The position numbers and the translations under genes are program-made. 64,000 nt of DNA from Brachybacterium saurashtrense (GTDB lineage Bacteria > Actinomycetota > Actinomycetes > Actinomycetales > Dermabacteraceae). The stretch spans positions 1,116,001 to 1,180,000 of the forward strand of contig NZ_CP031356.1 in NCBI RefSeq assembly GCF_003355475.1, read 5' to 3'. The notes beneath the pieces are model-generated. The model worked only from the letters and a program-made list of their open reading frames with translations, ran no database searches and was not told the DNA's origin. Shown here in pieces: positions 11,439 to 18,275 of the stretch (the stretch's first letter is position 1; every line of letters begins with the position of its first letter).

Positions 11439-11504
11439 GCCGCACCCGCCCGTGAGCCGCTGCGGGCGCTGAGGGCTCCGCGCTCCGTGCGGCCCCGCAC
11501 CTCG

Positions 11505-11547
11505 ACGTGAGGGCCGGTCACCACCAGGTGGTGACCGGCCCTCACGT
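11505..11547. terminator. Bidirectional terminator, perfect 21-bp inverted repeat
   Basis: Bases 11505-11525 and 11527-11547 are exact reverse complements separated by one base (A11526). The element sits between the convergent secG and the opcA-pgl fusion, so it can terminate both. The fold would need a few central pairs opened to form a loop. Confidence 0.8.
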
Positions 11548-11562
11548 GCATGCGACGGTGAC

Positions 11563-13278
11563 TCAGCCCTCCGTGCGGGCGGAGGCCTCGTCGAGATACC
11601 AGGTGGTGGAGGCGAGTCCGCGCACCGCCGAGGCGGGCACGCCCCAGGGGTCGATCCGCCCGTGGGCGTCCGCGACGGCGCCGGCCTTCTCCGCCCCGGC
11701 CACCAGCAGCTGGACGTGGCGGGCCGAGTTCAGCACCGGCCAGGTCAGCGAGATCCGCTGCGAGGGCGGCTTGGGCGAGTCGGTCACCCCGGTGGCGCTC
11801 GCGCTCACCCGGCGCTGACCGGGATGCTGCGGGAACAGCGAGGCGATGTGGCCGTCCGGCCCCATCCCGAGCATGAGCACGTCGAAGAACGCCTGCCCGC
11901 GGGTGCGGAAGGGCTCGTCGCCGCCCATCTGGTCGAGCTGCTGCCCGTACCAGGCGGCCGCGTCGTCCAGGGACATGCCGTCCGCGGGGGAGGGCATCAC
12001 ATGGATGTTGCGGGCCGGCAGGCCCGCGTCCCGCTGCAGCGGCACGAGCAGCGATTCCCGCACCGCGACCTCGTTGCGATCGGCGGAGTCGGGCTCCACG
12101 AAGCGCTCGTCGCCCCACCACAGGTGCAGGCGGGCGGCGTCGACGCCGGCGGCGCGCAGCGCCTCCGGCAGGGCCGCCGCCGTGAGCGTACCCACGGTGC
12201 CGCCGGTGAGCACCAGATGCGCCAGCGGCCGCTCCTCGAGCGCCTCGGCGAGCTGCTGCGCGGCGGCGGCCGCGGCGGCCGCGGCGACCGCCTCCGCGTC
12301 CGCGAGCACCACGTCCCGGGGCTCCGGCTTGCCGGAGGCGAAGGTGGAGGCGTCCCCGATGCTGCTGTAGGTGCTGGCCAGCACCTCGCCGTAGACCTCG
12401 TCCGGATCCAGGCGGCGCAGCTCCTCGGTGATCAGCTCGGAGAGGGTGCGACGCGGCATCGTCACGTGCTGACCGGTGTCGTCACCGGGCAGCTTCATGA
12501 CGATCGAGTCGTCGTCCACGCGGGTCAGCTCGATCGTGCCGTCCTCGCGCACCAGGCGCACGCTGTGCACCCCGCGGAAGTCGATGTCGGAGTCCGCCGG
12601 CGGCAGCACGGAGGCCGGCACCCCCAGCGCGTGCTCGAGCCATCCGGCCATCAGGGCCACCGACGGGTTGCCCTCGCTGCCGCTGACCTGCACCTCGGTG
12701 GGCGTCGAGATCGGCGGCACCTCGTAGGCGCTCGCCACCAGTCCCCGCCAGCGGGTGAGCCGTGCCCAGGCGAAGTCGGAGTCCCCGCTGGCGTAGCCGC
12801 GGCGCAGCCGCTTCAGGGTGCCGAGCGGGTCGGCGCAGGCGGCGGAGTCGGTGATCCGGCGCTGCGACATCGAGCCCAGCACGTCGTGGACGGGGGAGGA
12901 GGGCGCATGCTCCGGCCACCACGTCACGATCGGCGCGTCCGGCAGCAGCAGCGCCATTACCAGCGTGTCCAGGGACCACAGCACATCGCCGCGGGCATGG
13001 AGGATCACGATCTCCCCGGCGCCGGCGTGGCGGCCCACGCGGATCTCGGCGTCGAGCCCGGAGGTCTCCGCCTCCGGGTCCGCGTCCACCACGATCACGC
13101 GCGCGGGATGCTCGTGGCTGGCGGCGACCGCCGCCTCCAGCGGCTCCTCGATCTCGCCGGTGGCGACGATGATCAGCGTGAGCACCCGGCCGATGGTGTT
13201 CTCGCCGAAGGTCTCCCGCATCGTGATCATTTGCTTGTCGATCGCCGAGGCGGTGGTGTCGGTCAGGGTGGTGATCAC
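11563..13278 (-). CDS. OpcA-6-phosphogluconolactonase fusion protein
   Basis: One uninterrupted 571-residue frame joins two pentose-phosphate proteins. Residues 1 to about 308 match OpcA, the assembly/redox partner of glucose-6-phosphate dehydrogenase (VTWWPEHAP, ITDSAACADP, DFAWARLTRWR). Residues about 318-571 are a complete 6-phosphogluconolactonase: LTGGTVG (357-363), WWGDERFV (387-394), GMGPDGHIASLFP (471-483). In most actinobacteria these are adjacent separate genes, opcA then pgl (devB). The junction is a short Gly/Pro/Asp-containing linker near residue 315 (about base 12,340). The GTG start overlaps the zwf stop (GTGA). The domain calls are firm; the single-chain nature is read directly from the frame. 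Confidence 0.9.
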   Translation of the reverse strand: MITTLTDTTASAIDKQMITMRETFGENTIGRVLTLIIVATGEIEEPLEAAVAASHEHPARVIVVDADPEAETSGLDAEIRVGRHAGAGEIVILHARGDVLWSLDTLVMALLLPDAPIVTWWPEHAPSSPVHDVLGSMSQRRITDSAACADPLGTLKRLRRGYASGDSDFAWARLTRWRGLVASAYEVPPISTPTEVQVSGSEGNPSVALMAGWLEHALGVPASVLPPADSDIDFRGVHSVRLVREDGTIELTRVDDDSIVMKLPGDDTGQHVTMPRRTLSELITEELRRLDPDEVYGEVLASTYSSIGDASTFASGKPEPRDVVLADAEAVAAAAAAAAAQQLAEALEERPLAHLVLTGGTVGTLTAAALPEALRAAGVDAARLHLWWGDERFVEPDSADRNEVAVRESLLVPLQRDAGLPARNIHVMPSPADGMSLDDAAAWYGQQLDQMGGDEPFRTRGQAFFDVLMLGMGPDGHIASLFPQHPGQRRVSASATGVTDSPKPPSQRISLTWPVLNSARHVQLLVAGAEKAGAVADAHGRIDPWGVPASAVRGLASTTWYLDEASARTEG

Positions 13279-14828
13279 GGTCGCCTCCAGGTACGCCCGT
13301 CACGGGCGAGCATCTCGTGCGCGGTGTCGGGGCCCCAGGTGCCGGGGCGGTAGGGGGACGGGTCCAGGTGCTCGGCCCAGAACGCGGTGATGGGGTCGAG
13401 GATCTGCCAGGAGAGCTCGACCTCCTTCTGCCGCGGGAACAGGGGCGGATCGCCCAGGAGCATGTCCAGGATCAGGCGCTCGTAGGCCTCCGGGGACTCC
13501 TCGGTGAAGTTCATGCCGTAGGAGAAGTCCATGGTCACGTCGCGCACCTCCATCTGGGTGCCGGGCACCTTGGAGCCGAAGCGCATCGTGACGCCCTCGT
13601 CCGGCTGGACGCGGATCACGATCGCGTTCTGGCCGAGATCCGCGGTGTCGGTGGAGTTGAAGGGCAGGAACGGTGCGCGCTTGAAGACCACCGCGATCTC
13701 GGTGACACGGCGGCCCAGGCGCTTGCCCGCGCGGAGGTAGAAGGGCACGCCCGCCCAGCGCCGGGTGGCGATGTCCAGGCGCATCGCGGCGAAGGTCTCC
13801 GTGGTGGAGTCGGCGGGGATGCCGTCCTCCTCGATGTACGGGCGCACCTGCTCGCCGCCCTGCCATCCGCCCACGTACTGGCCGCGCGCGGTGTGGAGGG
13901 AGAGGTCCTCGGGCAGCTGCACCGCGGAGAGCACCTTCTCCTTCTCGGCGCGCAGATCCTTGGCGCGGAAGCTGAGCGGCTCCTCCATCGCGGTGAGCGC
14001 GAGGAGCTGCAGCAGGTGGTTCTGGATGACGTCCCGGGCGGTGCCGATGCCGTCGTAGTACCCGGCGCGGGACCCGATGCCGATGTCCTCGGCCATCGTG
14101 ATCTGCACGTGGTCGACGTAGCTCGCGTTCCAGATCGGCTCGTACAGCTGGTTCGAGAAGCGCAGCGCGAGGATGTTCTGCACCGTCTCCTTGCCCAGGT
14201 AGTGGTCGATGCGGAAGACGTCCTCGGGCCGGAAGGCCTGCTCCACCACGTCGTTGAGCTCACGGGCGGAGGCGAGGTCGTGGCCGAAGGGCTTCTCGAT
14301 CACCGCGCGGCGCCAGGAGCCGTCCCGCGGGGTGTTCAGGCCGGAGTTCGCCAGCTGCGTGAGCACTTGCGGGAAGGCGTCCGGCGGGATGGAGAGGTAG
14401 AAGGCGTGGTTGCCGCCGGTGCCGCGGGTGCGGTCCAGCTCGCCGACGACCTCGGTGAGCCGCTCGAAGGCGGCGGTGTCGTCGAAGGTGCCGGTGACGA
14501 AGCGGAGCCCCCCGCGCAGCTGTTCGAAGACGCTCTCGTCGAACCCGGTGCGGGAGTGCTCGGAGACGCTCGTGCGCACGTAGTCGGCGAAGTCGTCGTC
14601 CGACCAGTCGCGGCGGCCGAAGCCGACCAGTCCGAAGCTGGGCGGCAGCAGACCGCGGTGGGTGAGGTCGTAGATCGCCGGGAGGAGCTTCTTGCGGGCG
14701 AGGTCTCCGGTGACGCCGAACATCACCATCGAGCCGGGACCGGCGATCAGCGGGAGGCGCCGGTCCCGGGGGTCGCGCAGCGGATTGGGCGCGTCCGTCC
14801 CGGTGAGGAGGCGGGGGGAGTCTGTCAC
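13275..14828 (-). CDS. zwf: Glucose-6-phosphate 1-dehydrogenase
   Basis: The enzyme catalyses the first step of the oxidative pentose-phosphate pathway, yielding NADPH. The 517-residue protein has the NADP-binding GVTGDLARKKLLPA near the N-terminus, EKPFGHDLASA and the catalytic RIDHYLGKE. The GTG start (at 14828) has AAAGGA upstream and gives the expected N-terminus; the much longer open frame beyond it is a shadow through tal. Transcribed after tal with a strong hairpin between, and overlapping the OpcA-Pgl gene by 4 nt, which suits the need for OpcA in Zwf assembly. Confidence 0.96.
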   Translation of the reverse strand: MTDSPRLLTGTDAPNPLRDPRDRRLPLIAGPGSMVMFGVTGDLARKKLLPAIYDLTHRGLLPPSFGLVGFGRRDWSDDDFADYVRTSVSEHSRTGFDESVFEQLRGGLRFVTGTFDDTAAFERLTEVVGELDRTRGTGGNHAFYLSIPPDAFPQVLTQLANSGLNTPRDGSWRRAVIEKPFGHDLASARELNDVVEQAFRPEDVFRIDHYLGKETVQNILALRFSNQLYEPIWNASYVDHVQITMAEDIGIGSRAGYYDGIGTARDVIQNHLLQLLALTAMEEPLSFRAKDLRAEKEKVLSAVQLPEDLSLHTARGQYVGGWQGGEQVRPYIEEDGIPADSTTETFAAMRLDIATRRWAGVPFYLRAGKRLGRRVTEIAVVFKRAPFLPFNSTDTADLGQNAIVIRVQPDEGVTMRFGSKVPGTQMEVRDVTMDFSYGMNFTEESPEAYERLILDMLLGDPPLFPRQKEVELSWQILDPITAFWAEHLDPSPYRPGTWGPDTAHEMLARDGRTWRRP

Positions 14829-14896: not shown

Positions 14897-16012
14897 TCAG
14901 GCGCGGGCCGACTCGACCGAGGCCGAGACCGTCTCGAGCAGCTCGTTCCAGGCCTTCTCGAACTTCTCCACGCCCTCGCGCTCGAGCACGGCGAAGACGT
15001 CGACGAGGTCCACGCCCGCGCCCTCGACGCGCTCGAGCACGGACTGGGCGGAGGTGGCGATCTCCGCGTTCAGGGAGGCCTTCGGCGCGGAGTGGTCGGC
15101 CGCGGCCTCGAGCGTCTTCTCCGGCATGGTGTTGACCGAGGGATCCGCGACCAGGTGGTCGACGTAGAGGGTGTCGGAGTACTCGGGGTTCTTCACGCCG
15201 GTGGAAGCCCACAGCGCCCGCTGCACGTTCGCGCCCTGGGCCTTCAGGGCCTCGAAGCGCTCCCCGGAGAAGGCCTCCAGGTAGGCGCCGAAGGCCACCT
15301 GGGCGTTGGCCACGCCGGCCTGGCCGCGCAGCGCGCTCGCGTCCTCGCCGCCGAGGGACTCGAGGCGGGAGTCGATCTCGGAGTCCACGCGCGAGACGAA
15401 GAACGAGGCGACGGAGTGGATCGTGGACAGATCCTTCCCGGCGGCCGCGGCCTTCTCGAGCCCGGCGAGGTAGGCGTCGATGACGGCCTCGTAGCGCTCC
15501 ACGGAGAAGATCAGGGTGACGTTGACGCTGATCCCCGCGGCGATCACGGCGGTGATGGCGGGCAGGCCCTCGAGGGTGGCCGGGATCTTGATCATCACGT
15601 TCTCGCGGCCCACGACCTCGAAGAGGTGCTCGGCCTGGGCGATGGTCTTCTCGGTCTCGTGGGCGAGGCGGGGATCCACCTCGATGCTCACCCGGCCGTC
15701 GTAGCCGTGGCTGCCGGCATGGACGTCGGCGAGGAGATCGGCGGCGCGGCGCACGTCGTCGGTGGTGAGCATCTCGACGATCGCGTCGACGTCCGTGCCC
15801 TCGCCGGCGAGGCGGGCGATGTCCTCGTCGTACTCGGAGCGGCCGGAGATCGCCGCCTGGAAGATCGAGGGGTTCGTGGTCACGCCCACGACGTTGCAGG
15901 TGTCGATGAGCTCCTTCAGGCTGCCGGAGTCCATCCGCTCCCGGGAGAGGTCGTCGAGCCAGATCGAGACTCCGGCGTCGGAGAGGGCCTGGGTGTTGGC
16001 GTTCTGTGCCAT
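14897..16012 (-). CDS. tal: Transaldolase
   Basis: The enzyme moves a dihydroxyacetone unit between sugar phosphates in the non-oxidative pentose-phosphate pathway. The 371-residue barrel protein has [14 protein letters not shown] near the N-terminus and [14 protein letters not shown] carrying the Schiff-base lysine, typical of the TalAB actinobacterial subfamily. The ATG at 16012 has GGAAGGAACGAC before it. It follows tkt with an intervening hairpin. Confidence 0.96.
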
Positions 16013-16175: not shown

Positions 16176-18275
16176 TCACGCGCCGGCGGCGGCGAGGGAC
16201 TCCTTGGCGGCCTCGACCACGGCCTCGGCCGTGAAGCCGTACTCGCGGAAGAGGGTCTTGGCATCGGCGGAGGCGCCGTAGTGCTCGAGGGACACGGCAC
16301 GGCCGTGCGCACCCAGGAAGCGGTGCCACGGCATCGCGATGCCAGCCTCGACCGAGACGCGGGCGGTCACGGAGGCGGGGAGCACGGACTCCCGGTACTC
16401 CTCGGACTGCTCGTCGAACCACTCCACCGAGGGCATCGAGACCAGACGGGTGGGGGTGCCCTCCGCCTCGAGCCGCTTCTGCGCCTCGGCGGCGTACTGC
16501 ACCTCGGAGCCGGTGGCGATGAGGATGACCTCGGGGGCGCCGGTGGAGGCGTCCCTCATGACGTAGCCGCCCTGGGAGAGGTTCTCCGCCCCCGCGTACT
16601 CGGTGCGGTCGAAGGTGGGCATCGCCTGACGGGACAGGATCAGGCCCACGGGCCCGCTGTCGCGCTCGAGGGTCGCCTTCCAGGCCTGGGCGGTCTCGTT
16701 GGCGTCCGCCGGGCGCACGATCGAGAGGTTCGGGATCGCCCGGTAGGCGGCGAGGTGCTCGACGGGCTGATGGGTGGGGCCGTCCTCGCCCAGGCCGATC
16801 GAGTCGTGGGTCCACACGTAGGTGGCCGGGGTCTTCATCAGGGAGGCGAGGCGCACGGCGCCGCGCATGTAGTCCGCGAACTGGAAGAAGGTGCCGCCGT
16901 AGGGGCGGGTGAGCCCGTGCAGCGAGATGCCGGAGAGGATCGCGCCCATGCCGTGCTCGCGGATCCCGAAGTGCAGGGTGCGGCCGTACTGGTCGCCCGC
17001 GAACTCGGAGGAGCTCAGCTCCGCCGGCAGGAAGGACGGCTCGCCCTTCATGGTGGTGTTGTTGGAGCCGGCGAGGTCGGCGGAGCCGCCCCACAGCTCG
17101 GGCATGACCGCGGCGAGGTCGGCGAGCACCTTGCCGGAGGCGGCGCGGGTGGCGAGGCCCTTCTCGTCGGCCTCGAAGGTGGGGAACGCCTCGGCGAAGC
17201 CGTCCGGCAGCTCACGGGCGAGCAGACGGTCCAGCAGGGCGGCCCTGTCCGCGTTCGCGGAGCGCCAGGCCTGGTAGCCCTGCTCCCAGTCGGCGCGCAC
17301 GGCGGCGGCGCGCTCGGCGAGGCCGCGGGTGTGGGCGAGCACGTCCTCGTCGACCTGGAAGGTCTGCTCCGGGTCGAAGCCGACGGCCTTCTTCAGGCCC
17401 GCGACGCCCTCGGGGCCCAGCTTCGCGCCGTGCACGGAGTGGGAGCCGGCCAGCTCCGGGATCGGCCAGCCGATCACGGTGCGCAGGCGGATGAAGGTGG
17501 GCTTGTCGGTGACCTTCTGGCCCTCGAGGATCGCGTCCTTCAGCGCGGCGACGTCCTCGGCGTAGCCGGTGCCGCCGTTCGTCCAGTCCACGGTGCGCAC
17601 GTCCCAACCGTAGGCCTCGTAGCGCGCGGCGGTGTCCTCGGTGAAGGCGATGGAGGTGTCGCCCTCGATGGAGATCTCGTTGTCGTCCCACAGCACGATG
17701 AGGTTGCCGAGCTGCTGGGTTCCGGCCAGGGAGCTCGCCTCGGAGGAGACGCCCTCCTGCAGGTCGCCGTCGGAGGCGATCACGTAGGTGAAGTGGTCGA
17801 AGGGGCTCTCGCCCGGCGCGGCGTCCGGGTCCAGCAGGCCGCGCTCGCGGCGCTGCGCCATCGCCATGCCCACGGCGGAGGAGATGCCCTGGCCGAGCGG
17901 GCCTGTGGTGATCTCCACGCCCCGGGTGTGGAAGTTCTCGGGGTGGCCCGGGGTCTTCGAGCCCCAGGTGCGCAGCTCCTCGATGTCCTTCTTCTCGAGG
18001 CCGAAGCCGCCCAGGAACAGCTGGATGTACTGGGTCAGGCTCGAGTGCCCGGCCGAGAGCACGAACCGGTCGCGGCCCAGCCACGTCGGGTCCGTCGGGT
18101 CGTGGCGCATCAGGTCCTGGTAGAGGAGATAGGCCGCGGGAGCGAGGCTCACCGCGGTCCCGGGGTGACCGTTGCCGACCTTCTCCACCGCGTCGGCGGC
18201 GAGCACGCGGACGGTGTCGACCGCCCGCTCGTCCAGCTCGGTCCAGCCCTCGGGGGCCTTGAAGTTCTCCGTCAT
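16176..18275 (-). CDS. tkt: Transketolase
   Basis: This thiamine-diphosphate enzyme transfers two-carbon units in the non-oxidative pentose-phosphate pathway. The 699-residue product shows [18 protein letters not shown] and [11 protein letters not shown] near the N-terminus, [15 protein letters not shown], the ThDP motif (ASDGDLQEG...DDNEISIEG) and the pyrimidine-domain [14 protein letters not shown] with the catalytic Glu. ATG is preceded by AAAGGAAGC. It leads the tkt-tal-zwf-opcA/pgl cluster and is divergent from ctaB. Confidence 0.97.

Follow-up and report, generated by a model that had tools for sequence, protein, structure and literature searches.

A fusion of OpcA with 6-phosphogluconolactonase in Brachybacterium saurashtrense and other Dermabacteraceae

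The closest described counterpart of the locus analyzed here is the actinobacterial tkt-tal-zwf-opcA-devB(pgl) cluster in which, according to the accessible text for Corynebacterium glutamicum, opcA (cg1779) and devB (cg1780) are two genes (PMC2230225). Another precedent is provided by eukaryotic fusions of glucose-6-phosphate dehydrogenase (G6PD, G6PDH) with 6-phosphogluconolactonase (6PGL), namely animal H6PD, Plasmodium GluPho, and the Giardia/Trichomonas enzyme; the accessible part of the paper on these fusions leaves their benefit open and contains no occurrence of OpcA (PMC3148214). We analyzed a window of 64,000 nucleotides of the Brachybacterium saurashtrense genome (contig NZ_CP031356.1, positions 1,116,001 to 1,180,000) that contains the same genes as the actinobacterial cluster, in the same order and with the same neighbors, zwf being directly upstream, and that differs from it in that opcA and pgl form one gene, opcA::pgl. 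As in the eukaryotic fusions, the 6PGL domain is tied to the dehydrogenase step, but the eukaryotic proteins join the dehydrogenase itself, whereas the window protein joins OpcA, a non-catalytic subunit, and zwf remains separate. No report of a fusion through OpcA was found in the papers searched; the sequence databases surely hold the proteins. In this naturally occurring bacterial protein, the regulatory subunit of G6PDH, the enzyme that opens the pentose phosphate pathway, is physically tied to 6PGL, which catalyzes the second step.

The fusion gene (11563..13278, minus strand) is a single frame of 571 codons that runs from a GTG start to a TGA stop at 11565-11563, and its translation encounters no internal stops. 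Together with the Pfam matches, this agrees with an earlier note, made from the sequence of this DNA alone, which had described one 571-codon frame with complete OpcA and lactonase domains; the domain limits given there, residues 1-308 and 318-571, lie close to element boundaries in the predicted structure. The OpcA domain (residues 1-300; 12379..13278, minus strand) consists of PF10128 (residues 51-160, 115.5 bits against a cut-off of 27.9) and PF20171 (residues 165-300, 125.3 bits against 27.7). It is followed by a linker (residues 301-323; 12310..12378, minus strand) and a 6-phosphogluconolactonase domain of the DevB/SOL type (residues 324-571; 11566..12309, minus strand). The lactonase assignment rests on matches to PF01182 (Glucosamine_iso/6-phosphogluconolactonase; residues 327-560, 201.6 bits, far over the cut-off) and to the NCBIfam pgl family TIGR01198 (186.4 bits against 124.45), and on a fold and conserved motifs (LTGG, WWGDERFV, GMGPDGHIASLFP, and SPKPPSQR, with the roles generally assigned to them) that are shared with enzymes of solved structure. 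By sequence, the solved relatives are mainly mycobacterial lactonases (4tm7, 3oc6, 3ico, 3tx2), which are free-standing chains in contrast to the fused domain of the window protein, and, weakly, the Synechocystis OpcA chain 9emm_E. The G6PD domains of Pfam (PF00479/PF02781) have no match in the fusion protein, which is thus not a bifunctional G6PD::6PGL enzyme.

The joining of opcA and pgl is real, and almost all Dermabacteraceae examined have retained it, with homologous single frames in 41 distinct proteins of this family, the window protein included. Matches in named Brachybacterium records reach up to 87% identity. Among 38 genomes of the same genus, the source genome included, 34 give a single match that stays free of stops at least as far as residue 567; in G017 the junction is open and the frame ends early near the C-terminus, in G027 the frame changes elsewhere and one piece (residues 128-472) spans the junction, in G032 a contig end cuts the match off short of the junction, and G029 gives no match. 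The junction is open in all 36 genomes of the genus that cover it. Outside the genus, family members were sought in a sample of 396 genomes of the order; six of the seven found have the fusion, and one (G323) has two genes. The earlier note had suggested searching related genomes for the same domain order and regarded a stop at the junction in close relatives as evidence against a fusion: the order recurs as expected and no such stop exists in the genus, but two genes are present in G323 and in more distant families. Among the order-sample matches listed, all nine others that extend from OpcA to the lactonase end contain at least one stop. Furthermore, in 20 additional genomes of this sample, chosen for an OpcA match running into the linker region or for a single match, pgl is separate in 17, none is adjacent in 3, and none is fused. 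OpcA without an adjacent pgl was observed in G110, G175, and G162 of the order (L189, L190, and L191, respectively). Named genomes contributed 79 loci, 54 with two genes and 25 with an open junction; the latter comprise 20 loci from Dermabacteraceae (in one of them, L048, the frame changes elsewhere), three from Ornithinimicrobium (L069, L076, and L078), and two doubtful cases from Demequina litorisediminis (L075) and Phytohabitans flavus (L082). The open frames of these two, each from a single genome, resemble frame errors or diverged tails more than conserved fusions. In a phylum sample of 296 genomes (E-value up to 1e-60), 14 matched, with an unbroken two-domain match in the source genome only, although this count, like the others on distribution, may miss fusions with long linkers.

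Comparison of the 41 Dermabacteraceae fusions reveals no gaps or insertions in residues 300-324; A314, K317, and P318 are invariant, position 309 is D in 39 proteins, and position 320 is P in 37. In 54 separate OpcA proteins, the tail past the same helix can be anything from a few residues to almost ninety in length. The ratio of nonsynonymous to synonymous substitution rates (dN/dS), calculated from 89 pairs with 80-97% identity, is 0.18 for OpcA, 0.22 for Pgl, and 0.26 for the linker core (residues 309-322). On average, the 41 fusions show no Shine-Dalgarno signal before residue 324, where the mean anti-Shine-Dalgarno pairing energy is -2.55 kcal/mol, compared to -3.80 in the coding background and -9.16 at the opcA start. 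Given the lack of a conserved second start signal and the fixed linker, these gene sequences are in all likelihood translated as one chain.

In the predicted structure, the last OpcA helix spans residues 294-303, a short linker helix spans 311-314, and the first lactonase strand spans 321-325; the predicted local distance difference test (pLDDT) is 73 for linker block 301-310, 90 for block 311-320, and 62 for block 451-460. The predicted OpcA part has a G6PDH-like fold and resembles the solved OpcA chain of the cyanobacterial OpcA-G6PDH complex (9EMM). In the GDH/6PGL endoplasmic bifunctional protein (8em2), 6PGL is C-terminal as well (matched at 551-788 of 791), so that both proteins follow the same order, a G6PD fold and then 6PGL.

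We consider it fairly probable that OpcA carries the DevB-type lactonase to Zwf in one two-part protein, with the result that the ratio would be fixed and the lactone would be hydrolyzed near where it is made. The OpcA part would be the subunit that has no catalytic role of its own but binds Zwf and serves its activation or assembly. Its C-terminal domain (residues 165-300), from which the lactonase is separated by about 20 residues, would dock on Zwf as in the cyanobacterial complex, the binding residues of Synechococcus OpcA being given as 377-404 of 445 in the accessible text of PMC13071761. If the actinobacterial complex is like the cyanobacterial one, the lactonase would sit on the Zwf tetramer, and each docked OpcA would bring one lactonase in a fixed ratio to the dehydrogenase. 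6-Phosphogluconolactone is a reactive lactone, and the gain from its hydrolysis close to the site of production would consist in faster clearing along with balanced expression. A closed channel between the active sites is possible but is not needed for this proposal. The claim of the earlier note that the fusion puts the lactonase on the dehydrogenase complex is thus supported in part, by the fusion and its conservation, whereas docking would follow from the analogy with cyanobacteria. Moreover, the fusion suggests that actinobacterial OpcA remains bound to Zwf and is not only a transient assembly factor.

Several observations weigh against this proposal. The OpcA part scores 216.1 bits with the NCBIfam OpcA family TIGR00534 (model positions 3-301 of 313), below the cut-off of 256.25; its classification as an OpcA domain therefore relies on Pfam and fold, and it is not counted as a TIGR00534 equivalog. 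Its identity to 9emm_E is 20% over the structural alignment, and binding of Zwf at the cyanobacterial site would hold by analogy. According to the accessible parts of two reports, cyanobacterial OpcA of the 9EMM complex extends further at the N-terminus and carries a redox disulfide (PMC13071761, PMC12892837); the window protein, in contrast, has a lactonase domain attached and a single cysteine, C148. With the C-terminal redox pair missing, the cyanobacterial redox switch cannot work in the same way. The dN/dS of the whole linker (residues 301-323) is 0.52, faster than the core and close to that of the variable OpcA stretch 190-240 (0.49), and the pairing energy before residue 324 in the window gene, -5.80 kcal/mol, ranks near the top of the 41 genes in strength, although still weak. 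In addition, OpcA lacks an adjacent lactonase in 12 of 31 Ornithinimicrobium genomes, the Pgl tree is compatible with one origin of all fusions (see below), and the source genome might encode a backup 6-phosphogluconolactonase (L170, see below).

Instead of bringing the lactonase to Zwf, the fusion might be neutral, with the stop between opcA and pgl lost, the domains independent, and the link only equalizing expression. In favor of this reading, opcA and pgl are already in the same frame in 31 of the 54 separate loci (a sample biased to such loci by ranking), the lactonase is missing in the 12 Ornithinimicrobium genomes, and a functional gain from the link is our inference. We nevertheless regard it as rather unlikely: the fixed length and invariant residues of the linker hold even where identity with the window protein falls to 54% (20 rows), the linker core is under purifying selection, the junction is retained in all 36 genomes of the genus that cover it, and the fused lactonases share a lineage-specific loop. 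This loop, GGDxxFxTxG (residues 452-461), lies within segment 434-464 (11887..11979, minus strand) and is found in 40 of 41 fused Dermabacteraceae proteins, in none of 55 separate lactonases, and in none of 15 Ornithinimicrobium lactonases; it is also missing from the alignments of the window protein to 3tx2 and 4tm7. Conservation in 20 fused Dermabacteraceae combined with rarity in separate proteins marks 38 positions; 11 of them fall within 434-464 and 4 in the linker, where separate proteins mostly offer nothing to compare. Conserved yet modeled with low confidence, the loop is a candidate site of contact with a partner, for instance Zwf, although it may be a mere family trait. A more elaborate scheme, in which Zwf and OpcA::Pgl form a two-step metabolon like animal H6PD, with OpcA as a dead G6PD-fold scaffold and with the linker and the Zwf-contacting loop 452-461 steering the lactone, strikes us as doubtful.

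It is also conceivable, albeit quite improbable, that the gene yields mainly two proteins, the lactonase being freed by internal initiation at GTG 323/324 or by linker cleavage. The window gene has GTG at both positions with a GGAG-like stretch upstream (-5.80 kcal/mol), GTG makes up 25 of the 34 Val codons at position 324 (74%, versus 54% of Val codons elsewhere), and the pLDDT of block 301-310 would be compatible with cleavage. However, the average Shine-Dalgarno signal before 324 is absent, a GTG share of at least 0.74 is reached in 13 of 35 further Val-rich columns (not counting the start codon), and residues 304-335 offer no start codon in 3 of the 41 genes and, in several more, one only inside the first lactonase helix. 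As for an assembly or sequencing artifact hiding a stop, the scattered open junctions of L075 and L082 do resemble such errors, but the source genome is a single contig and the same junction occurs in 41 distinct proteins from many assemblies; relatives that share the open junction refute this reading, and we give it practically no credence.

The distribution of the fusion in Ornithinimicrobium (31 genomes from the genus of Ornithinimicrobium murale) points to a second event. Apart from the 12 lactonase-less genomes, 15 are fused, with linkers very unlike in length and sequence, one has an early stop in the lactonase, two have frame changes, and one gives no match. On an OpcA tree of 99 rows, two changes suffice to explain which proteins are fused and which separate when the 12 lactonase-less rows are left out, and all three states take five; G323 (separate) lies on a long branch beside Dermabacteraceae (support 85), Allobranchiibius L070 (separate) lies beside Ornithinimicrobium (support 91), and a single clade of all fused and lactonase-less rows is rejected (approximately unbiased, AU, test, p 0.013). 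On the Pgl tree, which has 87 rows, both fused groups form clades (99 each) and G323 falls outside the Dermabacteraceae fusions. Taken together, the two trees make two independent origins of the fusion likely but not proven, given that a joint clade of all fusions in the Pgl tree is not rejected (AU p 0.64).

The lactonase appears to have been lost within Ornithinimicrobium, as read from the tree and from the linker-like C-terminal tails that are left in 10 of the 12 lactonase-less proteins (L134-L140, L142, L143, and L145; absent in L146 and L147). In the L126 locus (G414), the frame is interrupted by a TAG near the beginning of the lactonase part, which may mark a stage on the way to losing the lactonase. 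Whole-genome searches of the 12 lactonase-less genomes detected no PF01182 gene with a DevB-like score: ten have one gene of 83.9-98.7 bits and two have none, the lactonase parts of G407, G416, G414 (with the stop), and G423 (with frame changes) scoring 213-233.5 bits. Two of these ten genes were identified, both as NagB. Matches to PF10282 were found in 20 of the 21 genomes examined, fused and unfused alike, and therefore indicate no clear lactonase replacement. Thus, separate, fused (probably twice), and lactonase-less forms coexist in related organisms, so that kinetic gain and neutral relic can be tested against each other on natural variants.

With respect to gene content, the source genome (a single contig of 3.72 Mb, completeness 100) contains one G6PDH gene and one OpcA. 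Its PF01182 genes are the fusion and a NagB. A full-length gene for a PF10282 beta-propeller (YbhE-type fold) was observed at L170:1489-2685; against known lactonases of the YbhE type it scores 56.5 and 45.3 bits, with cut-offs of 500 and 370. Given this weak similarity and the NagB identity of the other PF01182 gene, the fusion is the only DevB-type lactonase found in the genome.

The cluster has the order tkt-tal-zwf-opcA::pgl, all on the minus strand, and comprises tkt (transketolase, 16176..18275), tal (transaldolase, 14897..16012), and zwf (glucose-6-phosphate dehydrogenase, 517 aa, 13275..14828; the only PF02781 match of the genome), to which OpcA is directly adjacent. The TGA of zwf overlaps the GTG of the fusion (GTGA), and a GGAGG within the zwf 3' end (13284..13288, minus strand), 5 bases upstream of this GTG, is the likely ribosome-binding site of the fusion gene, judging from sequence and duplex energy. 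Just past the fusion stop, at 11504-11548, an inverted repeat of 21 bases, nearly perfect and with a 3-base loop, was noticed by eye, as was a convergent secG-like gene; the repeat is perhaps a two-way terminator between this gene and the fusion.
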